From Polytrichum commune (Eukaryota > Streptophyta > Polytrichopsida > Polytrichales > Polytrichaceae): a stretch of 64,000 nucleotides of DNA. Every line of letters starts with the position of its first letter. The stretch's first letter is position 1. The notes below the pieces were generated by a model. The model did not search any database and was not told the origin of the DNA. It saw only the letters and a list, made by a program, of their open reading frames with translations. Position numbers and translations under genes: made by a program. The DNA lies in the NCBI GenBank assembly GCA_950295325.1, contig OX485805.1, forward strand, positions 25,469,501 through 25,533,500, given 5' to 3'. Positions 11,217 to 44,315 of the stretch are shown in pieces.

Positions 11217-11913
11217 TTGAAAATCACCAACCTCAAGCTATCCACACAAGAATGTAACCCCGACAGAGATATTCAAGTGGATCAACCCACTATCCAAATA
11301 CAAAACTCCGAAACCCACATATACGACCAAAGGGGGAAGCACATAGCCACCATAACTATCGAGAGACTACAATGGCTATGGAACCAATTCTCCCAAAATA
11401 TACTCACGACAAAAAGTAAATCCCTACAACCCCCACCCCAAAATTTCGAAACAGAGGTATTATGGCTTATACAAAGATACATAACTATACTCCCCAAAAG
11501 GAAACCAAAAACCATACAACCAAATAATCTACATCATACCCTACACCCGGCAATCACTAAAATACTAATTGAATCCTTTAAAATTACGCACTACTCATCC
11601 CCCCTCATACTACTCATCCCCCCTCACCTGCCCCATACAACTCACACAGTATCACTCACCCCACAACAGGGATACAATATTTGGATCCATAGGACACGCC
11701 CAATCCTCCAGATGGAAAGGAACGGGACTAGCATATCCCACAGACCACAAAACAATTGTGGAAGCCTTCCATTGGGCCAGAATGGCCACCAAGGCGGACC
11801 CAAATACAACCACCATCCTCATTATTAATCACAAAGACTGGACATCCCAACAAATACCACTAACCGCAAAAGCCGACGTACACATCATGGCAACCATTCC
11901 CCCACACACCATA
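11217..11913 (+). pseudogene. LINE ORF2 fragment: region between RT and RNase H (outer copy)
   Basis: Continuation of ORF2 in a new frame, aligned with the inner copy from KITNLKLSTQECNPD onward. A 19-bp tandem duplication (units 11591-11609 and 11610-11628, beginning CTACTCATCCCCCC) shifts the frame again. The downstream frame then carries SRWKGTGLAYPTDHKT and HWARMATKAD, a conserved block of unknown function also present in the inner copy. The coding match stops exactly at the target duplication 11902-11913. Confidence 0.85.
11902..11913. repeat. Target-site duplication of the inner LINE, left copy
   Basis: CCACACACCATA, identical to 23913-23924. The base before and after differs between the two places, so the duplication is 12 bp. 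Removing 11914-23924 rejoins the outer ORF2 (IPPHTI then YTPTPEWPKYYQY) in the order seen in the inner copy. Confidence 0.95.
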
Positions 11914-11928
11914 GAAAAGAAAAGAAAA

Positions 11929-12093
11929 AGTAACGCCCGCACATTGTACCGGCGTGAATGCGAGCCCGTTGTCCGAATGCTAAACACGGCGGGCCGTGTT
12001 GTAGCATGGGGAGTTATGCCTCCGTTAGGAGGTGGGCTCTGTTAGTAAAAAGAAAGAGAAAGTAAAGTGTAAGGAGGTTAGTGTATGGAGTGG
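11929..12093 (-). ncRNA. LINE 3' UTR branched RNA structure and T/C tail (inner copy)
   Basis: On the sense (minus) strand an outer stem GAGCCC/GGGCTC (12034-12039 with 11962-11967) encloses two hairpins: CCTCC/GGAGG (12028-12032 with 12019-12023) and AACACGGC/GCCGTGTT (11993-12000 with 11983-11990). A third hairpin, ACGCC/GGCGT (11951-11955 with 11933-11937), follows just before the T/C tail. The outer copy keeps the same architecture with different paired bases. Structured 3' ends are what LINE reverse transcriptases are known to recognise when starting target-primed synthesis, so this is probably the RT recognition element. Confidence 0.75.
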
Positions 12094-12119
12094 TTTTTTT
12101 TTTTTTTTTTTTTTTTTTT
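12094..12119 (-). repeat. Internal A26 run in the LINE 3' UTR
   Basis: A run of 26 T on the plus strand, A26 on the LINE sense strand, lies about 10 nt after the ORF2 stop and 180 nt before the true 3' end. It is absent from the outer copy at the equivalent place, so it is an expansion in this copy and not the terminal tail. Confidence 0.85.
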
Positions 12120-12128
12120 AATAAATTT

Positions 12129-14861
12129 TTAGGGGGGTGCAACGGGATTTTGTTTGTTATCGAGTTTTCTTTTATTTAACACGAGGTATGTGAGATATTT
12201 GATGGCATTTTGATGTATGTTTTTCATGAGGATTTTTATATTAGATTTTGGGATTTTGAGGTCTTCTAATTTTTTGATGGAATTTTCGTGTATGGCACCT
12301 CTAACTCATGCTGTGATGGTTATAAGAGGATTTGTTTTCCATCCCTTGCTTTGTATAGTGCTAATCAATGGGTCGTATTTGGCATGTTTGTGTGTTATGG
12401 CTTGTTCTGGGAATCTGTCGTGACAGTATGTGAATTCAATGAATTGGATGGTTCGTGCGTGGGATGGTAGCATGGGTGTTGGGGTGTGGTTAGGGGCTCC
12501 TATAATACATAGGATGTCGGGTCTTAGTCTGGCGTGGCACTGGCAACCGGTTTGAGGGCATAGACATTCAATGAGCCAGTCGGGGACCGTTTGTTCTTGC
12601 TTGTTGTTGTTGATATTACCTGCATTTGTTAGTGTGTAATATCTGGTGTGTTTGTTAGCTTGGAGTGTTTGGGTGATGAGGTGTACTGCCTTGTTGTGGC
12701 GTGCTATTCTTAGGCCCTTTAAGTATGGGTGTTCGCATGTTGAGAGTAGGTGTGGCCATGTGTCTCTTTCATTTTTGCGGCATAATGTACAGTTTGGGTT
12801 TTGAAATTTGAGGGGCCAGAAAATATTCTTTCTATGGTTACCCATGTATTGGGCATATCGAAATTTTAAAGTTTGGGTGATTTGAGCGTCCGTTATTTTA
12901 TTGTTTTTCCAAAAGTGATTGGAGAGTTTGTGGTTTATTTGGTCGTTGGAGAGCCATTTGTCTACATATGGGTGTTTATGTTGGGCCAACCTAATTTCTT
13001 GTTTTTCGTGTGTTTTTGTGATGAATGTGTGCAAGTTTCGGATTGCCCCATTGCGTGTTGCTGTGGGACAACTTGTTAGCCAATATGGTGTAGCGTGTGC
13101 GATGTGTATATGGGGTGTGGGAGTGGGTTTTTCTTTATTTGTGCCTTCGTTGGCTAGCGCATCGGCTATTTCATTTCCTTTGATGCCCGTGTGGGCACGT
13201 ACTTTATGTATGTGTACTAAGTGCGGTGTTAGGTAAATTTGGTGTATTATGGCGGCGATGAGGATTTTGTCCGGGTGGTGGTGTTGTGAGGTTGGGTGTT
13301 GTATATGGTTACTAAGTAGATATATGCTATTAAGGCTATCTGTAAAGATGTGTGTTTCAATTTTTGTGACTTGGATGGTTTTGACTGCTATGAGTATGGC
13401 ATTTAATTCTGCTCTAAGTATGTTTTGGTATCCTGGTAGTCGTTCTGCTATACGAATGTTTGTGTTGGGGCTATAGACTCCTAAACCTGCGATGTCACCC
13501 TCTATTTGGCCTTCGGAGTTCTTAGTTGGTGGGATGAATGAGCCATCTGTGTACATGCATTGTTGTGGGTGGAATTTGGGGGGGTGTTGGTGGTAGTATT
13601 TAATGGGGAGGTTTGATTGGGGGATTGTTGGTGGTGGGGGGATGTTTTTTATGGGGGCGTTTTTCCATATGTTCGAGAATTTAATGTGGTAATTTGGCGT
13701 TGTAGGTTTGATTGGGAATGTGTCTATGGGTGCGTTGATGGTATGTTCTAGTACTTGTGCGAGGTCTTGTGGGGTTTTTAGGCTTGGTGTGAGGTTGGCG
13801 TGGTTATGTATACATAGTATTGTTGTGAGCGAGGGTTCTACGTATTGGTAATATTTTGGCCATTCCGGCATAGGGTTATATAGTATGGTATGTGGGGGGA
13901 TGGTTGTGATGGTGTGTATGTCACCACTTGTGGTAAGTGGGATTTGTTGTGTGGTCCAGTCGTTATGGTTGATTATGAGTATGGTGATCGTGTTTGAGTC
14001 TTCTTTGGCCGCCATTCTAGCCCAGTGGATGGCTTCAATGGTTGTTTTATGGTCTGTGGGGTAGGCTAGACCAATGCCTTTCCATCTAGATATTTGTGCG
14101 TGTCCTAGAGAGCCAAATATTATGTCACGGTTATGGGGTGAGTGATATTGTGTGAGTTGTGTGGGGCATGTGAGTGGGGATGAATAGTAGGAGTGCGTGA
14201 TTTTGAGGGAGTTTATTAATGTTGTGATAATTGTCGGGTGGATTGTATGGTGCATGTTTTGGGGTTGTATGTTTTTTGGCTTTCTTTTGGGGAGTATGGT
14301 GATGTATCTTTGTATTAGCCAAAGTATTTCAGTTTCAAAGTTTTGTGGTGGGGGTTGGAGGGCGTTTGTAGTTTGTGAGAAGTGGTGGAAAGAGAATTGG
14401 TTCCATAGCCATTGTAGCCTTTCTGTAGTGATGGTGGCCATGTAGTTTCCTTTTTGGTCATATATGTTGGCTTCGGAGTTGTGTAATTGGATGGTTGGTT
14501 GGTTTACTTGAATGTCTTTATCCGGGTTGCATTCTTGTATGGATAATTTTAGGTTGGTGATGTGAAGAGGGGGGTGTATGAATTTATTGTCTTTTGATTG
14601 TATGTGATTGAGGCAATTAGCGTATGTGTGGGTGGCTAATAGTTCGGCTTGCTTTGTGTGATATTGTGTAATACATAGTATGTTGTGGTCTAGAAATATA
14701 TTATCCGGGTGTAGTAGTTCTACCTCACTTCTCCATTGTTGGGTGATGCCTTGTGGGGCTTGCCATTGACAAAGGTAGTTCGTCCTTATTGCTTGTGCAC
14801 CCCATTTGTCTTTTTTAGTGGAGGTCTTTTCTTTTATTATTGTTTGGATTGCTTGTCCTAG
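12129..14861 (-). pseudogene. LINE ORF2 C-terminal half: RNase H and zinc knuckle (inner copy)
   Basis: RNase H removes the RNA strand of the RNA-DNA hybrid. This frame picks up right after the G18 tract (14861-14878), which shifts ORF2 out of its upstream frame. The first ATG in it is at 14441. Counting from there, RNase H spans residues 295-432 with the four expected acidic residues visible: YTDGS (D299), RAELNA (E345), FTDSLNS (D368) and GNEIADALA (D427). A zinc knuckle CX2CX9HX4C follows (CTLCRKNERDTWPHLLSTC). A TGA at 12308-12306 replaces a sense codon present in the outer copy. The frame would otherwise run 58 more codons to TAA at 12131-12129. Confidence 0.92.
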
Positions 14862-17800
14862 GGGGGGGGGGGGGGGGGATGTTTACCATGACCTCGTTTT
14901 GTGGTGGTGTTTGTTGTATTGGGTTTGTAGAGTTTGTGGGTGGGGGGGGGGGGAACATTATTGTTGCTTGTTGGAGAGCCTCTTTGATGGTTTTGGGTAT
15001 GTGTTTGTATGTGGATTGAAATTCTTTTGGGGTTAGTATGGCTTTGGTGGTGGGGTTTTGGATTTGTGTTAGTGTGGTAATGCCGTTTATGTATAGTTTG
15101 TCTAGATATTTTTGGGTCTTGGCTTTGGATATATCCGTTAGGGTGTTATAATTTGGGTTGGTTTTCCAAATTCGTTCTAGTGATGTTTCTTTGATGGGGA
15201 ATGCTTGGCTTGTGGAGTGGACATGGATTTCGTATTCTCTTTCAAGGAGAAAGAGTGTTCGGGCTATAGGGGAACGGACACATGCTTGTTGTTTGAGTTT
15301 GGGGAGGTGTCGGGCCCCACCATACTTGGCCGCTATATGTTTGGTTAGCCCTTGGTATATAATGCCTAATTGACCCGGATCGTTAAGTGCTTGGATTAGT
15401 TGTTGTCCTATGCATCGGATGTAGTCGGGTAGTAGGGAGGTTACGTTAATGCCAAAACTTTCTTGTGGGAGGTGGGTGAGGATGTTGGCCGAGCTTTTAG
15501 GAATGTTGCAAATTTCTTTGGTTAATTTGCTAATGATTTTGTCTAATTTTTTAATATCCGGTTTGGAGAATGGGACGGCGTAGTAGGCGTATGCTATTCG
15601 CGGTTTAATGACTGTATTCAAGATTTTGATTTTTTGTGTGAGGCTAGCCGGTGAGGTAGTTAGGAGTTGACTTTGTTGTTTGACTTTCTTCATCGTTATT
15701 TCTTTTTGTAGGTTCCATTTGAGTGATGGGGTGAGGTTTATTCTTAAATACGTATAAGGTTCGTTTTGGGTGAGGATGGGAAAATTTTGAGAGTTATATG
15801 TGATATGTTGTGATTGGATGTATGCTTTGAAGGTAGAGGGTTTTAGTTTAGATTTATTAGGACATCCGGTAATAGCACATTTTGATAGGTTGAGGTCCAT
15901 GTGGGACCATTTCGCGAATTTTTGGAGTTTTGTCACTTGTGGTTGAATGTGTAGTATGTTGTCCGTTATGATAGCTAAGTCATCCGCATATGCGGTTGTG
16001 GTGCATGTGGCGGATGACGTGTTGAAATGATAACCTATGTTATCTTTCTCGAGCCATCTTAGTAGTGGTTCGAGAAAAATGATGAAAAGATACGGGCTAA
16101 GGGTGTCCCCTTGTATGGTCCCGCGGCTTATTTCTATTGGGGGCGTCGTGCCAAAATGACTCCCGGTGAATGATGTGGTGGAATTGGTGTAGATATTGCC
16201 TACGATTTCTACCGCATCTAATGGGTAGCCTAGGTCCTCCATTATGGCTAGGAGTCTTGCGTGGTCTATAGAGCCGAAGACATTTCTAAAGTCTATATAA
16301 ATTAAGTATATGTCTTTTGTGGTTAGTCTTGCGTCTTCTAAGGTTGCTATAATCGTTTGAATTTGTCTCGAAGTGTTTCGTTGTGGTCGGAAGCCTTCTT
16401 GGCTAAAGTGTAGTAATCTATGTTTTTCTCCATAGCTTGTTAGGAGTGATGTTAGTGTGCTAGTGTATAGTTTATAGATTGTGTTCGCTAGTGAGATTGG
16501 TCTATAGTTGGATATGTGGGTGGGATCGTCCTTTTTGTGTAATAAGATGGTCTTACTATGTTTCCAGTATTGCGGGATCGTTCTTTGTTTGTTACAATGT
16601 TTGAAAAATAGGTATAGGAGGTCTTGCCATTGTGTTGGTAGTATTTTAATGATATCATTTGGGATATTGTCTGGGCCCGGGACTTTCCCTTTTGTTAGGC
16701 TTTTGACGCAACAGTCGTAGACTTCTCTAGTGAATTGGTTACTTATTTGTGTGTTGGGGTTGCCTCGTTTTTCTAGAATGATTCCTTGATGTGAGTGCCA
16801 TGGGTATTTTCGTACTGCACATATGCACGTATTAGGGTGGTCCGTGGTGTCCTCACATAGGGGGGCTTGTCTTTGGAATGAGGTTTGTTGAGTATGGTAT
16901 ATTTCCCTAGCTATCTCGGCGGGTTTGGTGAGAATTTGACCTTGGGGGTTTTGTATACAGTCAAGTGTGTTGGTGGTTGTTGAGTGAAATATTTTTTTGT
17001 GGATTATTTTGGGTTTAGTGTTTAGTAGGATTCTATATTTGTTAATGGCTGCTTTGCAATTAAGTGAGGTTTGCTTGGTTATGATTTTGTATGCTTCTGT
17101 CTTCGCGTTTTTTCCTATGGTGACTAGCTGTACAATCCATGTGTGTATTTCTGTGGGATGGGGGGGTGGTGGTGGAATATTGGGGTTTCGTATTAGCTGA
17201 AGGTTTGTGATATCTGGGTGGTTATGTAGTTGTGTATGGGGGTAGTGACATGCAGCTTTTATGGCTTTCCGGGTGTTGTGGTATATTTTCAGTTGATGCT
17301 TCCATTTATTCTGTTGGGTCCTGGGGAGGAATCCGCCTTGGGGTTTTATCCTATTTGGTAGTGGTGGGGTGGGGTGTGACATGCATGTCTGTTCTATGCA
17401 TTGACTAAGGGAATTGGTAATTTCTTGGAGTTTGAGTTGTGTGTCTGCCCATTGCGTGGGCGTAAGATGTTCTTGTTGGAGTATTTGTGTGAGGTTTTCT
17501 ATTGCTATATTTTGTTTTCCTAAAAAAGTTGTTTGTAGGTTTTGGAGGTTGTTAGGGGATATAGGGTATGTGATACGTGGGGTGTTTATGGGGTTGGTGG
17601 TTTCTTTGATGACTATTGTATTGGGGGCTAGCTGGAGTTGTACCGGGAAGTGATCCGAGTTTTGATTTAAGTTGGTTAACATATGGCTATGAAGATTGGT
17701 GATATTGGGGTCGTTGGTGTAGAAGCCGTCTATATGGCTAGTTGCTGTGTAGTTGTGGCTTCCTTGCCTTGTGAAGTTTACTGGGTTATGGACTACTTTG

Positions 17801-19749
17801 AGTCCATTGTTTTGTATGAATCGTGCCCATTCTTGGTCATCCGTATTAGGCGGGGTTGTAGTGTTATTATTGGTTCTTCCTTGTAGTAATATGTCACGGT
17901 TAAAGTCTCCGGCTAATATGATGGTGTATTTGGGGTGTTTTAGTATGATATTTTGAATTTGGTTTTGGATTTCGGGTATGAGGGGCTCATCTTCTAAGTG
18001 GGATGGCATGTACATGTTTAGGATGATTAGCGGTGTTAGTGGTTTGTTATTGATTATTATGGCTTGTAGGTAGGGTGAGATTGAGCTTGGGGTAGGTATT
18101 TTGATGATGTTTTCGTTTGTGTATATTGCTATGGGTATCATGGCTAGGATGCCACCTCTAGCTTGTGTGGGGCCCGTATATCTATTATGTTTTTGTGGTG
18201 TGGTATTGGAATTGTTGTATATGATTTTGTATTCTTTTAGTTGGCGGTCTATGTATGATGTGGATTTTGTTTTTGGGATTTTGGTTTCTTGGATGAGTAT
18301 AATATGGGGATTGTTGTGTAGTGTTTGGGTGAGTTCTTGGATACCGGGTAGGCTAGAGTTAATACATCCGGTGTTCCAAGTGATTATTTTCAGGGCTTGA
18401 GTGGTTGGGTTGTTTGGCCTAGTGTGGTCGTGTGGGGTATCCTGGTTAGGTCTATGTGTGTTGGGTTGGTATCCTGTTATTTTTTGGGTACATTTAGTTA
18501 GTTCTTGTATTATTTTGTTTGGGATGTGGTGTATTTCATTTTGTAGGGTTACTGCGGTTATGGGTACTCCCTTAGCGATTTTGTCGTTGATGATGGAGTA
18601 GGCTTGTGGTATGGTGGTTATTGTTGGAGTATGTATGTTAGTTTCGTGGGATGTGTGTGGGTGCGTATTAATTGGCAATTGTTGTAGTCGTCTTAGGATG
18701 GTCAAGTATCTTGGATGAAGTTTGTTAGTCATTTTTTGATTGCATATTTGTGGTATTGGGCTATATGTTAGGATAAGGGCATATATTTGGTGGTGGGTGG
18801 GGTAGTTTGAGAGGAGTGAGGAATGGTTTTTTAGGTGTGTTAATTCTTGGGAGTTGGGAGTGTTTTGGGGGTTGGGGGTGTTGTTGTTTAAGTGGGGTTC
18901 AAATAACTTTTCAAGGTGGGCGTATTGAGGTTTGAGTGTTAGGGTTTTTGGTATAAAGTATTGTTTTTGTCGTTGTGTGTATTCTTTGGGGAGGTTTTTG
19001 AGGATGGTTGAGAGCGGCCCCGGGTTTAGTTCAATGTCTCCGTGTAGGAGTATGAGTGTAGAGTTATTCCAAGTGTAATATGCTATGGTTTTAATTTTTG
19101 GTTTTTTGTGGTGAGTGTGTGTTATGTAGTAGATATTTCCTATATATATTGGTATATTGATGGGGATGATTGTGTGGTTTGTGTATGGGTTGTTATTTAT
19201 GTGGTAGTGGTGGTTGTATGTGTGTGAGGTGGTCTTTCTATGGTTATATTGGTGAGTGTTGTCTATGTGTGGTGTATATATTGTGGTTTTGTGTGGTCTA
19301 TGGGAGTAATGGGGATTATAGATGTATGCGATGGGTATCATGTAGTTGTTTGGGAGAGGTGGTAATGTGTGTATTTGTAGTGTGTGGGTAGTGGTAAGTT
19401 TGGTGGTCTTCGTGTATGTGTGTGATGTGTGTGGTGGCATAGGGGGAGTCATGGGTGGTGTTGTTTTTTGGGTGTGGTTGTGGGGGTTAAATATGACATG
19501 TCTTAAGGAGGATTTGTGAGTATGGTGTGTTGGATTATGGGTGATTTTGGTGTGTGTGTGTTTTGTTAGGAGAAGGAGGGTAGTGATTAATAGGTATATA
19601 TGTTGGGAGGTGGGTCTAGTTTTGTGAGAGTTTAGGTATGGAGAGAGTACACCCTTAAAAAATGTGGGCATTTTATTATATAAAGAAAAAACAATACAAC
19701 ATATAAAGGAGAGGGACCATTTATGGTGTCCTTGGAGGCCACTATCCAT
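14815..19749 (-). CDS. LINE ORF2 N-terminal part: 2A-like motif, AP endonuclease, reverse transcriptase (inner copy)
   Basis: Target nicking and reverse transcription. The frame is open from 19905. The ATG at 19749-19747 overlaps the ORF1 stop (ATGGATAG) and is the likely start, making the stretch to the frame break about 1,644 aa. Domains by DNA: hydrophobic N-terminal segments (about 19715-19560); 2A-like GDIELNPGP (19041-19015); AP endonuclease (about 18393-17632) with IITWN, the catalytic Glu in LIQETK, LAGDFNRD, SHIDGFY and NSDHFPV; RT (about 16690-15880) with GPDNIP, NYRPISL, SQEGFRPQR, YIDFRNVFGSIDH and the catalytic YADD (15990-15979). The usual FxxAFD of RT motif A reads FRNVFGSID here. 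The frame ends 13 codons after the poly-proline stretch encoded by the G18 tract, while the homologous sequence continues in another frame. Confidence 0.93.
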   Translation of the reverse strand: MDSGLQGHHKWSLSFICCIVFSLYNKMPTFFKGVLSPYLNSHKTRPTSQHIYLLITTLLLLTKHTHTKITHNPTHHTHKSSLRHVIFNPHNHTQKTTPPMTPPMPPHTSHTYTKTTKLTTTHTLQIHTLPPLPNNYMIPIAYIYNPHYSHRPHKTTIYTPHIDNTHQYNHRKTTSHTYNHHYHINNNPYTNHTIIPINIPIYIGNIYYITHTHHKKPKIKTIAYYTWNNSTLILLHGDIELNPGPLSTILKNLPKEYTQRQKQYFIPKTLTLKPQYAHLEKLFEPHLNNNTPNPQNTPNSQELTHLKNHSSLLSNYPTHHQIYALILTYSPIPQICNQKMTNKLHPRYLTILRRLQQLPINTHPHTSHETNIHTPTITTIPQAYSIINDKIAKGVPITAVTLQNEIHHIPNKIIQELTKCTQKITGYQPNTHRPNQDTPHDHTRPNNPTTQALKIITWNTGCINSSLPGIQELTQTLHNNPHIILIQETKIPKTKSTSYIDRQLKEYKIIYNNSNTTPQKHNRYTGPTQARGGILAMIPIAIYTNENIIKIPTPSSISPYLQAIIINNKPLTPLIILNMYMPSHLEDEPLIPEIQNQIQNIILKHPKYTIILAGDFNRDILLQGRTNNNTTTPPNTDDQEWARFIQNNGLKVVHNPVNFTRQGSHNYTATSHIDGFYTNDPNITNLHSHMLTNLNQNSDHFPVQLQLAPNTIVIKETTNPINTPRITYPISPNNLQNLQTTFLGKQNIAIENLTQILQQEHLTPTQWADTQLKLQEITNSLSQCIEQTCMSHPTPPLPNRIKPQGGFLPRTQQNKWKHQLKIYHNTRKAIKAACHYPHTQLHNHPDITNLQLIRNPNIPPPPPHPTEIHTWIVQLVTIGKNAKTEAYKIITKQTSLNCKAAINKYRILLNTKPKIIHKKIFHSTTTNTLDCIQNPQGQILTKPAEIAREIYHTQQTSFQRQAPLCEDTTDHPNTCICAVRKYPWHSHQGIILEKRGNPNTQISNQFTREVYDCCVKSLTKGKVPGPDNIPNDIIKILPTQWQDLLYLFFKHCNKQRTIPQYWKHSKTILLHKKDDPTHISNYRPISLANTIYKLYTSTLTSLLTSYGEKHRLLHFSQEGFRPQRNTSRQIQTIIATLEDARLTTKDIYLIYIDFRNVFGSIDHARLLAIMEDLGYPLDAVEIVGNIYTNSTTSFTGSHFGTTPPIEISRGTIQGDTLSPYLFIIFLEPLLRWLEKDNIGYHFNTSSATCTTTAYADDLAIITDNILHIQPQVTKLQKFAKWSHMDLNLSKCAITGCPNKSKLKPSTFKAYIQSQHITYNSQNFPILTQNEPYTYLRINLTPSLKWNLQKEITMKKVKQQSQLLTTSPASLTQKIKILNTVIKPRIAYAYYAVPFSKPDIKKLDKIISKLTKEICNIPKSSANILTHLPQESFGINVTSLLPDYIRCIGQQLIQALNDPGQLGIIYQGLTKHIAAKYGGARHLPKLKQQACVRSPIARTLFLLEREYEIHVHSTSQAFPIKETSLERIWKTNPNYNTLTDISKAKTQKYLDKLYINGITTLTQIQNPTTKAILTPKEFQSTYKHIPKTIKEALQQATIMFPPPPPTNSTNPIQQTPPQNEVMVNIPPPPPPRTSNPNNNKRKDLH
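19015..19041 (-). other. 2A-like ribosome-skipping motif in LINE ORF2
   Basis: Codons read GDIELNPGP, preceded by NSTLILLH, which is the D(V/I)ExNPGP consensus with the usual hydrophobic lead-in. Known 2A motifs make the ribosome skip the Gly-Pro bond, releasing the upstream peptide ending in Gly and starting the downstream one with Pro. It sits at about residue 237 from the proposed ORF2 start, roughly 200 codons ahead of the endonuclease. Some animal and trypanosome LINEs have 2A motifs near the same place. Activity here is inferred, not shown. Confidence 0.88.
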
Positions 19750-22102
19750 TAAACGTGCTAGGTCCTTGGTGGGACATTGTTGGGTTGGTATGGAAGCCCG
19801 GTGGGGCTTGTAGAGGTAGCGGGGAGGCGGTCGTGTTGTAGCTTTGTGGTAGTGGGGGTGGGGCGGTTCGTTGTAGAATTTCCGGTGCGGCGGCGGCGAT
19901 TCCATTTACTAAGCCTTGCATGCGGAGGTTCGATTGTTGGAACTCGTGAGCAATTGTGCCGAAGAGTGCTTGAAGGTTGTTGGTGTGGTGTGTGATGGTC
20001 GCCGTGGTTGTTTCGAGGCGTCGATCCGTGTGCGTGTTGATTGTGGTGGTGAGCGTGCAAAATTTCTCATCCAACTTGTCTTCGAATTCTTTCATGGTTT
20101 TGGTGAGGTAGTTTTCGGTGAGGAGTGGGTTGGCGTTGGTGGCGTTGCCCATGGCTTGAATTGTCTCCGCAATGGCTTCACGAACGGGGGCTTGGGCTAG
20201 TCGTATCGCCGTCTTGTTGGGGTCCGTGCCGTCTATACTCCCTCGGTGGGGGATGAAGTCGATGCGGCGTCCAAGGATGAATGTGGATTTGTGGAGCCAC
20301 TCCGTGTACACCGCGGTGTTGAGACATTGGATGTGGCACCATCCGGCTTGTTTGTCGGAGTGGGGTTGGTTATTGTTGCCAAAGCTAATGCCCACGATGT
20401 TGTCCGTCCTGAATGCATGCTTGATGGCCCTTGTAATTGTTGTTTGTGTCTCACGTTGTGGTAAGTTGTTGGCCACTAGTGTTGTGCTAATTCGGAGCTC
20501 CGAAGGGTTGCCGGTTCCTCGGTCTCGGGTGATGCTTACTTGAAGCCTCTCATGGTTGAATGTGATCCCGTCCTTGAGTATGTGGTCGCGTGCTTCTTCG
20601 GTGGTGAGTGTGAGAAATGCAAAATTTTTATCGAGTTCCGGCTTGGTGAGGCCCATGAATTCGTGTTGTTGCCCGTTGTAGTAGCTCTCCCGAACAATGG
20701 TTTCGAAAATGTTGGATGCATGTTCATGTCGAAGTGTTTCTCCCTTGAGGTGTAATCTAAGGTTGCGGGCTTTAGTGGCAAGCTCGTACCCCTTTTCCAC
20801 CTTACCAATGACCAACTCCTTATCCTCCATTTCCATGGCAAATGAGCGGTTTCCTTGGAGTAGTGCATGTCCGTCACGTTGTGGGTGTTGGAGATGGACT
20901 TTGATGAAGCCCGCCCAATTTTTGGTGACGGCGTTGATCCCTACATCAAGAGGATTCGAATATGCCTTGCCAAGTGGGATGTCCATTTGCTTAAGTCTTT
21001 CAAGGCAAACCCCTCTAGCTTCTTGCCTACTAATGCTTTTAAAGCCAAAGTCAAAACGAATGGTTACATGGAACCCTTCGGATAAGCCGGTTGAGGGGTC
21101 TACCTTTTCTTGTCTTGGGATTTGTGTAAAGTGGAGGTGGTTGCCGGGGACCGCGTCCAGGCGCTCGCTTGGATAGAAAAGTTGTGGGACTCTTGGAAAG
21201 GCTCTCCGAAGGGTTTTGAAGTGGATGATTTCTTTCGGGGGGGTCCTGATCCGAGCAAAATCTTCGTTGGTGCGGAGCTCTCGTATGACGTCTACACCCT
21301 TTTGCACCGCAACGGCTTCATGGATGGGGAAGCCCAACCACATTTGGGACACTATGTCTATGCTTGGAATCGCTTCCTCGGACCTCGTGTTGTGTGATTT
21401 GTGTGAGTCGGGGTTGGCCTCTATTCCTCCCGATTCACTTCTTCTCCTTTTCGCACTTTGATTGTCCGATGTGGCTACATTCATTGAGCTCTTGTGTGTT
21501 GTAGTTGTGGGTGTCCTTTCGGCCAAGTTGATGGTGTCAAGTCGGAGTATGGCGGCTTGGTTCGGGGCGGCCATGAATTCATCATTGGATAATGAAAGTT
21601 GGAGAGAGCTCCCTCCATGCTCGGGGGAGACGTCCGCCAATTGCATATCAATGTCAAGATCGTGAAAAGTGAGGACCTTCCCCTTCATAAGTGCTGGTTG
21701 GCTTGCTTGTTGGATATCTTCATCTTCATCATTGTAGTCCTGTATGAGCGCCCTTCTTCGGCTACCGTTGCTGTTTCTGGTTCCGGGGCCCCTACTGTCT
21801 TGGTCTCTGGTGCCGTCGCTGTCGAGTGGCGTTGCTGCTATCCCTTCACCTACGCTCCCCGCTCCGGTGGCACCCCTGAGTCCGTCGTCGATTCCGCCTC
21901 CTGTCTTCGCTCGCCTTCGGTTGCCCCTAGCTGTGTCCTCTTTCTGTCTGCTGCTTGAGCTCGGGCGAAGACCTCCTCTGCTTTCGGTGCCGGAGCTTCT
22001 GGTGTTCCTGGTTCTGCTTCTGGGTTCCGCATCTTGCCTTGCATCAGTTGCTGTGGGGGTCTTGTGGGTGTGCTTCGCCATATCTTCTAGATTAGAGGCC
22101 AT
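19742..22102 (-). CDS. LINE ORF1 protein (inner copy)
   Basis: LINE ORF1 proteins bind the element RNA and help carry it to the nucleus. The ATG at 22102 lies in a good context (CACCATGG) and gives 786 aa. The protein has a basic, Arg/Ser-rich N-terminus, an acidic patch (YNDEDED, residues about 121-127) and a folded middle part. Residues about 536-625 (ISTTLVANNLP to GRRIDFIPHRG) look like an RRM-type nucleic-acid-binding fold. A helical, possibly coiled-coil stretch follows (about 635-745), then a Pro-rich tail. No CCHC knuckle is seen. The same frame is open upstream to an ATG at 23899, close to the element 5' end, so a 1,385-aa form is possible. Confidence 0.8.
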   Translation of the reverse strand: MASNLEDMAKHTHKTPTATDARQDAEPRSRTRNTRSSGTESRGGLRPSSSSRQKEDTARGNRRRAKTGGGIDDGLRGATGAGSVGEGIAATPLDSDGTRDQDSRGPGTRNSNGSRRRALIQDYNDEDEDIQQASQPALMKGKVLTFHDLDIDMQLADVSPEHGGSSLQLSLSNDEFMAAPNQAAILRLDTINLAERTPTTTTHKSSMNVATSDNQSAKRRRSESGGIEANPDSHKSHNTRSEEAIPSIDIVSQMWLGFPIHEAVAVQKGVDVIRELRTNEDFARIRTPPKEIIHFKTLRRAFPRVPQLFYPSERLDAVPGNHLHFTQIPRQEKVDPSTGLSEGFHVTIRFDFGFKSISRQEARGVCLERLKQMDIPLGKAYSNPLDVGINAVTKNWAGFIKVHLQHPQRDGHALLQGNRSFAMEMEDKELVIGKVEKGYELATKARNLRLHLKGETLRHEHASNIFETIVRESYYNGQQHEFMGLTKPELDKNFAFLTLTTEEARDHILKDGITFNHERLQVSITRDRGTGNPSELRISTTLVANNLPQRETQTTITRAIKHAFRTDNIVGISFGNNNQPHSDKQAGWCHIQCLNTAVYTEWLHKSTFILGRRIDFIPHRGSIDGTDPNKTAIRLAQAPVREAIAETIQAMGNATNANPLLTENYLTKTMKEFEDKLDEKFCTLTTTINTHTDRRLETTTATITHHTNNLQALFGTIAHEFQQSNLRMQGLVNGIAAAAPEILQRTAPPPLPQSYNTTASPLPLQAPPGFHTNPTMSHQGPSTFNG

Positions 22103-23899
22103 GGTGGTGCTAATGTGTGGATTGAGGGGAGGGCTGGAGAGAGAGATAAGAGACTGGGATGGCTGTTGGGGTATTTGAGGGATTCGGTGTGGGTGGTGGG
22201 TGGGTTTTTCCTGGTTTGATTCAAGGCTTGGCAGGTGATCGTGGGCTGGGTGCGGAGTAGTGTGTTGTACTGTAGTCGGGTTTGGTTGAGTGTTTGCTGT
22301 TGTGACCATTTTTGTTGTGGGCGTTTTAGATGTGGATCTGTGGCGCTCATTGTGGCTATTTACGATGTGGGTGTTTGTTTGTGTGAGTGTGCTGGGGTAT
22401 GGGTGTTTTTTGTGTGCATTCTTGGTGGTGGTTTGTTGTGGGTCTCCTTTTAGGTAGGAGTTGTGATAGACTTGGGTGGCTGGTGGCTTTCTGGATTTGG
22501 GGTGCCGAGTTGTCCCGGCGGAGCGCGCTGGTCTGTCTTGGTTCGGCACTTTTCGGGGATCTTCATGGGGGTTCGAGGTCGTGCAGGGGATCGCCGAGCT
22601 GTGAGGAGCGGCCTCTGGAGGTAAGTCAGTGCAGAGTATTCGGCTGTCTTTGTGTTTTTTGTTTGGGGTAGCTTCTTGGTGGTGGGTGCATCCATTTTTG
22701 CTAACCTCTGTGTGTATGTGGGTGTGATCTGTGGGCGACGGCGGTGGCGCTTGTGGATCTGGTGGCCTTTTTGGAGGTGGAGGTGCACGGGGGTTAGGTG
22801 TGCATTGTGGGGGGCTCACTGTGTTGTCAGTGTGTGTGGAGGTGGGCATTTGTGAGCGGGGTCTTGGTGGCGTCTTCAAGCGTGGAGTATTGTTGGGTCT
22901 TGGAGGTAGCTTTAGATGGAGGCTTGAAGTGTGTTTGGTAGAGAAGAGCATTGGGGGGCAACCTATAGTTGGGTGTGATAGTATTTTGGGTGGAGAGTAA
23001 TGTGGGTACTTTGTGGGGGGAGAGCTTAGTGGGTGTATTGGGGGTGATTCCATTGTTGAGTGAGAGCTTTGTGGGGGAGTTGTGGGGTTGAATATTGAGG
23101 GGGGAGCATTGTGGTGTGTGTGTGCACACAGGATAATGGTGCTTATGAGCACCCATTTTGTGTTTGAGAATAAAGCTGTAGCGTTGGACGCATTTGTTGG
23201 TGTCGATCCGTGTCTTCTTCTTGCCTCGCCGCGATCTAGATCTGTTTTGCTCCTTCTTTTCTTAGCATGCTTGTGCTTCTGGCTTGTTGGTGCGGTCTCC
23301 GGGGTAGTGTTTGGGGCGCTGGGCCTGTTCGCAGGACTTCTCCCCATCTGTGTGCATCGTGCTGACTTGTTGATGCGGCCGCTAGGGTTGCTCTTGGGGG
23401 TACCGGGATCTGCTCTCTCCTTGTTCGTGGTGCCTCCTTCTCTTGTGTGAGCCCTGCAGCTGTGCTGCTGCCGCATTGCAACATCGCTCCTCTGTAGATC
23501 TGGGACATAGTGGTGGGAGGTAGAGTTCGCGGTGTACTTAGGGTTAGCTGAGGGGAGCGCGTTTGCTTGGCAGATGCTAAGCAGTGTGTATAACACTTGT
23601 AAAAATGTGCAATGAAATCTTGGAGGTTTGCTCTTCAGATGCCTTTGGTGTGTTGTGTCAATCACTCCTCCTGCTATCACTGGGCTTGCTTGCTTCGTTG
23701 CTGTCCCTTGTATTTGCGCCGATGTTGTGTCTCGCCCGGTGAGTCTGAGGCATGCGGTGTGCTGGATCGTGTGCAACGGGTCGCTGGTGTCTATGCTCGA
23801 AGGTTGGGCTTTTTGCTGCGGCGGCGTCTTGAGTTTGTGTCTACTCCGTGGTGCTTTCTCGGTTGCGGCACCGCTCTGGAGCTGCGGGCGGGCAGCCAT
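22103..23899 (-). other. Open, Pro/Thr/His-rich extension upstream of LINE ORF1
   Basis: About 1.8 kb read through without a stop, in frame with ORF1, from an ATG 14 nt after the element 5' end. The translation is low in complexity and rich in Pro, Thr, His and Ser with no domain I recognise. Its sense strand is poor in TA-rich words, which lowers the chance of stops, so openness alone does not prove translation. It is either a 5' UTR/promoter region or an N-terminal extension of ORF1. Confidence 0.5.
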
Positions 23900-23903
23900 C
23901 TTG
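23892..23903 (-). promoter_or_regulatory. YY1-like motif at the LINE 5' end
   Basis: CAAGATGGCTGC sits at nucleotides +10 to +21 of the element sense strand. It resembles the YY1 core AAGATGGCGGC, which in human L1 lies at nearly the same distance from the 5' end and sets the start of transcription. Plants have a YY1 homologue. The motif is short and also contains the first ATG of the element, so the match may be fortuitous. Confidence 0.35.
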
Positions 23904-23912
23904 GTAGTCAAT

Positions 23913-23924
23913 CCACACACCATA
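23913..23924. repeat. Target-site duplication of the inner LINE, right copy
   Basis: CCACACACCATA, the partner of 11902-11913. The outer LINE resumes immediately after it. Confidence 0.95.
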
Positions 23925-39208: not shown

Positions 39209-40873
39209 CTACTGAATCCCATGCCTTTCGTACATACTAAATATATATGGTCGTTGTCCCTGGGCTCCAAATATTTTCCACGTCTTGCAATCCAAAACCT
39301 TTTCCAAGAAGGTAGGCGCAACTACAGAGGGGTAATGAAGGTATTTCTCCTCCCATCCTTGCTCCTTCCATGTTTGAAAATCTTCGTAACCCCAAATTTG
39401 TCCCCCATTACCACACATTATCTTATGTCTCTTAAAGTCCAACCCGTATGACCTAGAATAGTAGACGTATACACATGAGGGATCCGACACATATACTAGT
39501 TCCAACGCCTGCAATCCTTCAAGCATATGAATGTCCTCCTTATGTAACTCTACTCTAGTGAAAGTTATGTTCAACACCTTTAGGTTTGTCAGTTTACTCA
39601 TGTCTGACAACCAGCATAGCGATTCACAACCCAACAAATTGATAGTTTTTAGTCCACGTAAATCTCCAAGGCCTTGCAGACCAGTCAGTTGCCTGTTCTC
39701 ATAGGCGTTGATAACTTCTAATTGCTCCAACCCACTGAGGTTTGGTATCTCTGTTATGCCCAAGGCATTAATATGCAACTCACGAAGACACTGAAGTCCA
39801 GTAAGAGTAGGAAGTGTCGACAATCGTTCGCAATAACTTAGACTTAATAATTTCAAACCAACCAAGCCGTCCAATCCAGGGACTTCATCTATATCCAAAA
39901 AAATACATTTCAGTGTATGAAGGCGCTTCAGAGCAGTAAGACTCGGCAACTTCGAGAGTTTATGGTTCTCCATCAAGACCAATGATAGTAAACCAACCAG
40001 GCAGTCTAGTCCACAAACTTCAACCAATTCGCAGCACCAACGTATTTTGAGCGATTGTACGCTGTGGGGCCCTAATCTCACAATTTCCAACGTCTCAATG
40101 CAAGTAAGCTCCACTTCTTGCAGAGATGTACAGCTCCTCAAATCCAAGTCTGAAGTGTGAACATTCTTGAGCTTGAGCGATACCAAGTTGGTGCACAAAG
40201 CAAGGACGTCCAGCTCAAACACAACAGTAACAACTTTAAAAGCATCTCGTTGCTTTCTACTTACTACCAGAACTTTGAGTGCTGTTGGTAGTTGTCCTAT
40301 AGAAGCTCCACGATCGATACAGCTACTAACTATCTTGAAATAAGTCAAGGATTTCAGCCCTTCCAAGCCCTCAATTGAAAACTTGGATGGAGAAAAACTA
40401 TGTCTTGCTTCCACAGTTAAGCTTCTCAACCGAATGAGGTCTTTGAAATTCAAAACTCCAGATAATTCGTAAACAAAATCTAGCTTCAAGACCACAAGGT
40501 TCGTGCAATATTTCCATTCGATCGTCGTTAGACTCGTAATCCCCGATTTCTTCATAATTCCATAAGTCCCAGAAATACAAACTCGTGTCAACTTCTTCCA
40601 ACTACTCCTTGGCTCCGCCTCCAGCTCTGTAGGACGTGCATCCCTAGCATACACCCACCTCCGCTCCTCCATGTCCAAGACCATTAATTTCCCTTGTGCT
40701 TCCAATTTTGCAAACTCAAGATACAGATCGTGTATGCTCACTTCCCCATACCTCATCTCGGCATGCTCCAACAAGGCACTATCCACCAAATGTTGCAACT
40801 GCAATTCCATCATAAAACAATCACAATATAATCCATCAGACATGGGCATGAAATTTCCATGCAAACCCTTCAA
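39209..40873 (-). CDS. LRR exon of the TIR-NBS-LRR gene
   Basis: One uninterrupted frame of about 554 codons. It starts with a short MELQLQHLVDSALLEHAE helical piece and a probable winged-helix end (VSIHDLYLEFAKLE), which corresponds to the MHD region (here IHD). About a dozen leucine-rich units follow, with spacing LxxLxxLxLxxC, such as LPSLTALKRLHTLKC and LVGLKLLSLSYCERLSTLP. A non-LRR tail (YEDFQTWKEQGWEEKYLHYP) closes it. The upstream limit is uncertain because of frame breaks. The frame may extend a few codons 5' of 40873. Confidence 0.8.
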   Translation of the reverse strand: MKGLHGNFMPMSDGLYCDCFMMELQLQHLVDSALLEHAEMRYGEVSIHDLYLEFAKLEAQGKLMVLDMEERRWVYARDARPTELEAEPRSSWKKLTRVCISGTYGIMKKSGITSLTTIEWKYCTNLVVLKLDFVYELSGVLNFKDLIRLRSLTVEARHSFSPSKFSIEGLEGLKSLTYFKIVSSCIDRGASIGQLPTALKVLVVSRKQRDAFKVVTVVFELDVLALCTNLVSLKLKNVHTSDLDLRSCTSLQEVELTCIETLEIVRLGPHSVQSLKIRWCCELVEVCGLDCLVGLLSLVLMENHKLSKLPSLTALKRLHTLKCIFLDIDEVPGLDGLVGLKLLSLSYCERLSTLPTLTGLQCLRELHINALGITEIPNLSGLEQLEVINAYENRQLTGLQGLGDLRGLKTINLLGCESLCWLSDMSKLTNLKVLNITFTRVELHKEDIHMLEGLQALELVYVSDPSCVYVYYSRSYGLDFKRHKIMCGNGGQIWGYEDFQTWKEQGWEEKYLHYPSVVAPTFLEKVLDCKTWKIFGAQGQRPYIFSMYERHGIQ

Positions 40874-43800
40874 ATCATTGAATCTAAAATCTCTAGAAAC
40901 TTCTTGTTCTCATGCTTAACCATATTCACACTTTCATCATAGTTCAACCTATCTCCCCAACGATTATGGTGTTCAACAAACATAAGCTTGTAAATGATCC
41001 ATTTTGCATGTTCTCCAAGGATTGCTCGTCAATCTCGAAGGAGCTGCAATCCAAGAAATATTTTGTCAATTAATACAAAACAATTAAAATTTATATTAAG
41101 ATCTTAAGATAAATTAATATTTTATTATATTGATATTCATGTTGGGACTTGAGGCATCAAAGAGGGGGATTGACTACATACCCAATTTTCAATCACTTCC
41201 TTCTCCTTATTGTGAACAAGACTCAACCACTCCATCAAATCCACCTTGACATAATAATCACTTTCGGGGAAGAACATAGCTAGATCCATAAATAACTCTT
41301 GCTCCCCTTTAGGCAATCGGTCGAAATTGCTTCTAAGAATGTTGAACAAAGGATTCACTGGTTCTTGCGAATAGCTAGATTCTTTGAGTTTTTGTAAGTC
41401 CTTCATCCACGCGGAAGGTTCTTTACCTCCATATTGAAGGAAAACACCTAAGGCTTTCAATGATAATGGATGATAATGCGAACCTCGACCTTTGCCCTTG
41501 CCAAAGTAACAACTTTTGATACACTTCTCAATAGCATCCTCATCTTCCGTATTTTCAAACTTTTTTCCATTTGCTGCATGGTACAAAAACATATTCCTTG
41601 CATCATCCTTGTCAAGTTCTGGCATCTCAAAACATGCACTTTCATCCACATTAAGACTTATGAGAGTCTTTCTAAAGCGGGATGTTATAATCACCCAACT
41701 TCCCTCAACAAAAGGTGCTCGAAGAAACAATTTCCCTTGCTCCAATGAATCAGAATCATCCCAAACGTTGTCTATAGTTAGGAAGGTTTGTTGCTTCCAA
41801 TTCTCGAATTTCAAAAGGATGTCTTCACACTGCAAATACACCCAAATCATGAGTGGAAGGCACAATTAAAGGCATTGGGTTTCAAAGCATTGTACATCTT
41901 TTCTTAGGATAAAAATAGATGTCAATAGAATGCTAAGAACATTAAATGCACAAAACAACATCAAGTGAAACATTGGGAGTTGCATCCTAAGTTGCCTTCA
42001 TTTGCATATAATCTTGAGGTAAGCAATACTTGTCTTACTAATTCATGAAGCTCACAGGCTTAACATTGGATTCATGAAAATGTTCATGACTTTAAAGAAC
42101 AAATACCTTGTCCTCCCCCACTTCTTGAACAACCTCCGCACTTGTATTTGTCAATGTGGTCAATACCTTCTTCACTAACTGGTGTTTACTTTGCTTTCCC
42201 AATTCCACATGGCACACCTTCCCATCAAATTCTCCATCCATTTCGTTACACATCATCTTGCAAATTTGAGTTTTTCCCATTCCGCCCACACCATACAAAC
42301 CAATCACACGTACGCATGGCATCTTGGTGGAATTTGGACTATTTCCAAAATGGTCTCGTATAACCTATTGAAGTCACATCATGATGTCAACCAAATTAGA
42401 ACTCCATGTTAGTTTGAAGGTCTCAAATTAGAAGTATTTTAATGACATTGACTTATTGTGCTCACAACGGAAAGAAACAACAAATGCAATTCATACAAGA
42501 TTTAGTTAGTAGTTCCAAAACTTGGTATTTACCATGTTATATTGAACAAACAAATTCTTGCTGAAGACCAACATCATGATTAAAGATCATGAACTAGGTT
42601 CCAATATTGTTGCAAAGTCAAGAGTGATTGATCCAAATTGTAGCATTGAGATATCATACATCATCCCCTCATCGGAAGGTCAACTCACAAATTAGAATCT
42701 TTGAAATAACAGTTTCGAACCAATCCCCGAAAATAAGTGTTCCAAGTGAAAAAAAAAGTACATGGATGGAATGATTGAGAACATGTTTTGTGTTGATAAT
42801 AACTTTTGTTTCATTTTATCTAAGTGAATCAAACTCATTTTGAACTTAAAGTCATTGTAGCTTAGATTTGGAACGTACATGTACATTTATAGTTGAGGTC
42901 TAACTAACAAATTATCACGGGTAGATCACTCTAAGGCATTTTTGTGCACCACGTGCGGCTGGGGTTTTTTTCTTGTTTTGGGGCTATTTACCTTCAAGGG
43001 CTGAATTAAAGCCTCCCTATAATTACTTATATTTCAAAAATCGTCCATTTGTTTGCACCCTTCCATTATTTATATTGTCCAAGTCACTGCAATTTTTTGT
43101 TCTCTATATTCTTTTTAAGTAATAAAAGCGTGGGGAAGACGACCCCAACGACGGCGCGTTCCCTTTTCATCCATTTTTTAACAGACATAAATCCCAATTA
43201 TCATCCATCCCCGTGAGTCCTAAACCCATTTACATACCATACTAAACATACCTTCTAGGATCATTATCTTCAGCCCCTAGATTAATTTTACAAAAAAACA
43301 ATGGCCCACGTTTTATGTCCATCTAACTTACTTATAATGGGATTGTCTACATTTAATGGCCCCTTCATTATTTGGAATTCCTTTATAATTTTTATTTCAA
43401 ATGATTTGAATCCTCTCTATATTATGCCGCACGTCGTTTTTAAAATGCACTAAGTGATCTACCAGTGCAAATTATGGCTGACATGGATCAACCAAGAATC
43501 AACCTTTGGAATATCATCAATAATATTACCTGGCATAATTTTGAACGCCCTTGGACATGTGATTCATCGTATTTAATGTCTGATGGAATTGACTTGCATA
43601 TACTTGAAACAATCTCTTTTCGATAAGCAACAACTTCTTTTGAGTGTCGGTCATACACCAAACCATTGAAAGCACCAAACCACTTGAGACATTCTTTCCA
43701 TTCACCCACTTTAATTCGATGATCTTTTTTGGCCATCGTCTCCCACTTCTTGAACCATTCCTCTTGTCTAGCACTATCAGAAAATTCTCCCACATTGAGC

Positions 43801-44315
43801 CCGAAAAATAGAGGAAGAATCTTCAAAGTTGGATCTTTCTTATATGCTTGCACAAAGCCATTGAGCTCAATCATTGGCCACTTTGATGAAAAGTACTCCT
43901 CAGAAACCACCACCACCATGATTTTGCATTGTGCTACAGCAACTTTGATAAGGTCAGGAAACCTCTCCCCGTTGGGCAAGCTTGAAGGTCGTTTGTCAAA
44001 AAAAGGAAAGCGATGGCGGCTCTCGAGGTCCACACACAATTGCTCTACAAATTCTTTTTGCGCTCCACTATGGCTCAAGAATATTTTATGATGTCGGTGC
44101 AATATTGGGTCCTCGTACTTGAGATCAATTGACCTGTGTTGGCAAGGGAAAGGCATTTCAAAATTTACAAGGTGCAAAATACATTGAAGCCACATAAGGA
44201 CAAATACATGACAATATAATGAAAGAATAGGAAAATACAAAAACTCCTTCTCAATCCTACAACCAACTTGATGGATTTACCTGTCTATCTTCCTTCTATT
44301 GCTAGATGTAGCCAT
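39209..44315 (-). pseudogene. TIR-NBS-LRR resistance-type gene, probably disrupted
   Basis: An intracellular immune receptor type: the TIR domain signals, the NB-ARC domain switches on ATP binding, the LRRs sense. Exons by splice sites: 44315-44281 (MATSSNRRKID), 44133-43530 (TIR: HHKIFLSHSGAQKEF to about PSDIKYDES), 42364-42107 (P-loop GLYGVGGMGKT), 41829-41182 (kinase-2 FLTIDNVWDD, RNBS-B GSWVIITSR, GLPL-like PLSLKALG), then from about 41043 to 39209 (LRR). The introns start GT and end AG, and phases agree through exon 4 (515 codons). Just after, the sequence reads DCSSFEIDEQS, NRWGDRLNYDES and DFRFNDLKG in three different frames, with stops, so at least two frameshifts lie in 41040-40880. 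The LRR frame is then open for over 550 codons (for example LRELHINALGITEIPNLSGL). Confidence 0.85.

Follow-up and report, generated by a model that had tools for sequence, protein, structure and literature searches.

The plant LINE inserted in the window, the whole 64,000-nt stretch of DNA that was analysed, very probably carries a genuine 2A (StopGo) element, with a restart of translation at ORF2, release of a leader peptide and production of an enzyme that begins with proline. What is directly observed is the motif, together with its conservation by selection, the context upstream of it and the coding constraint on the leader, while the boundary with the folded enzyme is seen only in a structure model. 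The skipping, the restart and the reason for them are inferred and there are no translation data; ribosome skipping at the motif is likely and remains untested.

The minus-strand codons at 19015-19041 read GDIELNPGP when the reverse complement is translated, and they satisfy the 2A/StopGo core (D/G/C/N)(V/I)ExNPGP. The full consensus match proposed in the initial annotation, which named no strand, is therefore correct. The motif lies inside a 1696-codon stop-to-stop frame (14815-19905, minus strand), and Pfam matches to an AP endonuclease and a reverse transcriptase (RT) are located downstream in the same frame. Within the window this is the single match to the DNA pattern D(V/I/M)ExNPGP, which 100 shuffles failed to produce. 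The N-terminal peptide was estimated at about 244 residues, and there are indeed 244 residues from the ATG at 19749 through the last glycine of the motif. The features of the element are:

11902 to 11913, no strand: target-site duplication, left copy, 12-bp repeat CCACACACCATA
11914 to 23912, minus strand: LINE insertion of about 12.0 kb with 12-bp direct repeats at both sides, nested in a related plus-strand LINE
23913 to 23924, no strand: target-site duplication, right copy, the same 12-bp repeat
19742 to 23899, minus strand: ORF1, 1385 aa, counted from the first ATG within the insertion
19742 to 19749, minus strand: overlap of ORF1 stop and ORF2 start, ATGGATAG, ORF2 ATG at 19749
19018 to 19749, minus strand: ORF2 leader, 244 aa, rich in Thr, His, Pro and Asn, with a hydrophobic segment near the N-terminus (SLSFICCIVFSLY)
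19015 to 19041, minus strand: 2A/StopGo-like motif GDIELNPGP, break predicted between G (19018-19020) and P (19015-19017)
18484 to 19014, minus strand: helical domain predicted by AlphaFold directly after the motif, model residues 46-222
17605 to 18405, minus strand: AP-type endonuclease domain, model residues 249-515 (PF14529, PF03372)
15865 to 16539, minus strand: reverse transcriptase domain (PF00078, E 2.3e-30; R2 and L1 RTs in PDB)
14815 to 14882, minus strand: frame break, the overlap of two ORF2 frames
14097 to 14375, minus strand: PCIF1-like domain between RT and RNase H (PF12237, E 1.1e-7)
13143 to 13562, minus strand: RNase H domain (PF00075, E 1.2e-14)

The insertion meets the criteria for an APE-type non-LTR element. 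The AP endonuclease and RT share one frame 3' of the 2A motif, a target-site duplication is present, and there are no LTRs, in that a self-comparison of the window found no direct repeat linking the two ends of the insertion. When the 200 bp on each side of the insertion are joined, they align without a break to the homologous region of the related plus-strand LINE (75%). The top-ranked Foldseek match of the endonuclease part is the human L1 endonuclease (1vyb, E 1.9e-11). Against PDB, the RT scores 96 bits with R2 and 64 bits with human L1, without a clade reference set. Neither Pfam nor NCBIfam gives a match to ORF1. Elsewhere, only one partial match exists to the first 200 bp of the insertion, which leaves the true 5' end of the family unsettled. 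The 3' region has a 26-base T run at 12094-12119, which reads as A on the element strand and stands about 180 bp short of the element end.

The endonuclease-RT-RNase H enzyme described in the initial annotation holds for the window copy only in part. The endonuclease and RT do share a frame, but the RNase H sits in another one (12309-14882, minus strand) because of the frame break at about 14815-14882. In locus L080, a single frame of at least 2867 codons contains the leader, the motif GDIKPNPGP, endonuclease, RT and RNase H. Between RT and RNase H, the window copy breaks within a stretch rich in proline, and L079 breaks at the identical place. For these two breaks, mutation and a programmed shift are not distinguished.

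The host is a green plant, as had been claimed, and the LINE is native to it. The SBP domain, which is known only from plants, has 16 matches in the genome and none in 14 control genomes. The window also has TIR, NB-ARC and LRR frames in order at 39212-44276 (minus strand), which probably belong to a plant-type immune receptor gene. Copies of the LINE are located on large contigs: matches occur on all of the seven contigs of 42-78 Mb (C1-C7) that make up nearly all of the 408 Mb, and one match from the endonuclease search is on the small contig C36. Contaminating DNA is unlikely because all seven large contigs have matches. Seven large contigs suggest n = 7, which could point to a moss of the Polytrichaceae, although this placement is no more than a guess. 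A search for relatives in viral contigs gave 47 stretches with the pattern, none of which was confirmed, and a search in phages gave none.

The genome has 406 sites of GD(I/V/M)(E/Q/H/D)xNPGP and 273 sites of D(V/I/M)ExNPGP, compared with 0 for the reversed pattern in both cases. Since a reversed pattern is a weak null where repeats are concerned, selection was tested. The 82 loci compared include the window copy and represent 79 distinct places, because L079, L080 and L081 overlap L001, L058 and L041. Loci L001-L018 (18 of 124 matches, selected for long frames) were retrieved by N-terminal similarity with a query that itself includes the motif. The motif served to pick L019-L038, which were excluded from the selection test, and L039-L078 (40 of 141 matches) were picked mostly for open endonuclease frames with the motif disregarded. 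The 19 loci from the N-terminal search, counting the window copy, all keep NPGP; by eye, all 20 loci picked by the pattern belong to the same LINE module. The module is present in 39 of the 40 endonuclease-only picks, and at least one module with an intact NPGP is found in 36 of the 39. Among these picks, L056 is cut off before the module is reached, L071 has it farther upstream than usual, L052 and L069 read NLGP and L075 reads NPGS.

The loci fall into two groups, A and B, named by endonuclease identity, which is about 45% between the groups and also about 45% between group B and the window copy. G, D, N, P and G are invariant across 21 sequences whose identity to the window copy is 34-95%. 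Absence of the motif from other family members would have refuted the initial annotation; instead it is present in many copies of two deep groups and is under selection at the protein level. L006, which has a group-A-like leader, has a mosaic look: its leader and first module are near the window copy (80%), but its endonuclease is only 34% identical over the aligned stretch.

The selection set used 58 of 59 loci (the window copy, L001-L018 and the 40 endonuclease picks), which gave 72 modules, 71 of them with complete motif columns. D12 together with NPGP is found in 67 of the 71, and a broken NPGP in four (NLGP twice, NPGA and NPGS). Position 14 is E in 37 modules, Q in 14, H in 13 and K in 7, and position 15 varies freely, which is also true of known 2A. 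The claim of a conserved D(V/I)ExNPGP form is met by the 34 fully canonical modules; it is too strict for the family, mainly because Glu-14 is replaced in 34 of the 71. The residues upstream are hydrophobic and end in (C/S/H/G)-G ahead of D, with I or L at p7 in 71 of 71 modules, mostly I or L at p7-p8, C, S, H or G at p10 and G at p11 in 69. Judged by eye, this context fits the L-rich classes 2 and 6 of PMC12846837; in the available part of that source, L-rich StopGo classes end in (A/S/C)G with D at p12. The same part gives over 95% activity for His at p14 and 26-56% for Gln, and no activity value for Lys appears in it. The frequent replacement of Glu-14 and the four modules with a broken NPGP count against a 2A function.

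The tree for the selection test was built without the codons of p12-p19. The core positions 12, 13, 16, 17, 18 and 19 (D, I/V, N, P, G, P) have 60 synonymous and 8 non-synonymous changes, compared with 442 and 519 in the flanks (Fisher odds ratio 0.11, p about 2e-12). Equally few non-synonymous changes were found in 12 of 100,000 random six-column sets. These counts rest on parsimony and not on a formal model, and some of the rows are near-identical copies. In 20 pairs, the dN/dS of the module is 0 to 0.28, except for values of 0.46 and 0.84 in two pairs with the frame-broken L022. After the module, it is 0.08-0.47 in 12 pairs and 1.56 and 1.17 in two near-identical pairs (dS 0.015 and 0.005), and no value is available for six pairs. 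For the leader, dN/dS is 0.16-0.68 in 19 of the 20 pairs; the remaining pair, L004/L005, has a dS of 0 and hence no value for leader or module. This pattern suggests that the leader is translated and weakly constrained. Selection at the protein level maintains the motif in many copies.

The junction of ORF1 and ORF2 was compared in 20 loci (the window copy, L001-L018 and L080). ATGNNTAG precedes the hydrophobic leader in 19 of them, with L017 as the exception, and the ORF1 frame is additionally open for 60 codons upstream in 14. This is a short signature, and the loci, being related, are not independent. The overlap signature suggests a restart after termination, which is an inference. An ATG is missing from the overlap in L025 and L081; some families therefore fall outside the restart model. 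The hydrophobic peak of the real leaders is reached by 0-16 of 1000 shuffles except in L080 (79 of 1000), so the hydrophobic segment is not striking in every copy. The initial annotation placed the motif between a membrane-like N-terminal segment and the AP endonuclease; a hydrophobic segment and a downstream endonuclease are present, but membrane targeting is not shown. The group B leaders of L020, L021, L034 and L036 are long, basic and repetitive, with recurring RARPTGLA or HPKHK-like runs.

The AlphaFold run on 21 sequences is of modest quality (mean pLDDT 67, pTM 0.50). Residues 1-45, which include the motif, have a pLDDT below 50, order begins at residue 46 and the first helix is at residues 47-50. 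The motif is thus predicted to be disordered and to lie at the boundary of the folded enzyme, within the limits of such a model.

The explanation that best fits these results is that ribosomes ending ORF1 most likely restart at the overlapping ORF2 ATG, a step which is inferred, and that the hydrophobic, fast-evolving leader would be made first. The motif implies that the Gly-Pro bond would not be formed at NPG/P. The leader would then be released, and the endonuclease-RT enzyme would be made with an N-terminal proline. The likely benefit, also inferred, is that a nuclear enzyme would be freed from a leader that may tie it to a membrane or hinder it.

It is conceivable, but rather improbable, that the motif leaves the ribosome unaffected and is conserved only as a structural or binding peptide, in which case leader and enzyme would remain one protein. 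The columns p57 F, p59 P and p-9 P are as invariant as the core, the relaxed position 14 departs from the 2A consensus and skipping is unmeasured. However, conservation falls on the 2A core and leaves position 15 free, the hydrophobic-x-G residues upstream correspond to a known 2A class, and the motif is unfolded in the model with order beginning just after it, so this reading is weakened although not excluded. There is also little support for the 2A acting mainly as a brake, where some ribosomes halt at NPG and fall off and the ratio of enzyme to ORF1 is lowered. The sequence does not separate skipping from drop-off. Termination at some natural 2A sites is described in the available parts of PMC11512398 and PMC5009743, and the two or three NPGP motifs that share one open frame in 9 of the 82 loci would multiply such an effect, but 69 of the 82 have a single motif per open frame. 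A chance match within a decaying repeat has next to no likelihood and is ruled out by the shuffles, the genome counts (406 against 0) and the purifying selection, even though NPGP has decayed in the single copies L052, L069, L075 and L004.

Dual targeting, as in sea-urchin NLRs, is a refinement of the 2A explanation and not an exclusive rival. Partial skipping would be selected, so that unskipped ORF2 goes to membranes and the skipped enzyme to the cytosol or nucleus, with position 14 tuning the ratio. It is tentative at best. The E/Q/H/K variation at position 14 and the hydrophobic segment beside the ORF2 start in all junction loci but L017 are in its favor, and the portion of PMC4981915 consulted provides a precedent in mammalian and plant cells. 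The unremarkable peak of L080 does not fit it, the other group B leaders examined are basic, low in complexity and lack a clear start, and there is no known reason for a retrotransposon enzyme to enter the secretory path.

The loci with several motifs (L005, L006, L007, L009, L011, L012, L014, L060 and L068) derive from duplication of the 2A module. L009 carries GDIQLNPGP, GDIHPNPGP and GDIQTNPGP, and L010 and L016 have a second M-hydrophobic-NK segment as well. A speculative possibility, which is doubtful at present, is that StopGo is serial and tunable in a large plant LINE clade, where each duplicated leader-2A unit releases its own peptide and the change of Glu-14 to His, Gln or Lys sets the remaining leader-enzyme fusion. 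If true, this would be a built-in control over where and how much enzyme is made.

Natural 2A sequences are known in viruses, in trypanosome and animal LINEs and in some cellular genes. Reportedly, 2A was found in trypanosome L1Tc by Heras in 2006 and 2A-bearing APE-type LINEs of multicellular organisms were described by Odon in 2013. These elements are reported also to have the 2A core in frame near the N-terminus of a protein with AP endonuclease and RT. The window family differs from them in its green-plant host, the separate ORF1 with the ATGNNTAG overlap in most loci tested, the long weakly constrained leader, the frequent Q, H or K at position 14, and the PCIF1-like domain and RNase H downstream. 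The N-terminal 2A signal sequences of sea-urchin NLRs, as far as PMC4981915 was available, likewise have a hydrophobic N-terminus followed by 2A, but there the signal sequence is on an immune receptor, whereas here a 244-residue leader is on a retrotransposon enzyme. The viral StopGo classes 2 and 6, in the accessible part of PMC12846837, share the hydrophobic residues followed by G-D(I/V)ExNPGP; the plant LINE is non-viral, has a relaxed position 14 and also has His or Gly at p10. That part reports no 2A use in plant viruses, though 2A works in plant cells. A literature search limited to titles and the starts of abstracts found no 2A described in a plant LINE; priority is not certain. If translation confirms it, a plant LINE clade with hundreds of selected sites would extend natural ribosome skipping to plants. 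It would also offer plant-born 2A sequences for biotechnology, and the position-14 variants are a natural series for testing the rules of the motif.

The literature search also found no report of PCIF1-like domains in LINEs. PF12237 is the PCIF1 cap-methyltransferase family, and the related fragment at 11569-12042 has no match to it. The best PDB matches of the L080 region are PCIF1 chains and are weak (E 0.018 and 0.05), and the NPPF stretch of PCIF1 aligns with L080 residues that do not keep NPPF. The domain is found in the same place in L080 (5000-9901, aa 936-1031, E 7.6e-11) and in L081 (3-3758, minus strand, aa 671-764, E 2.2e-8).
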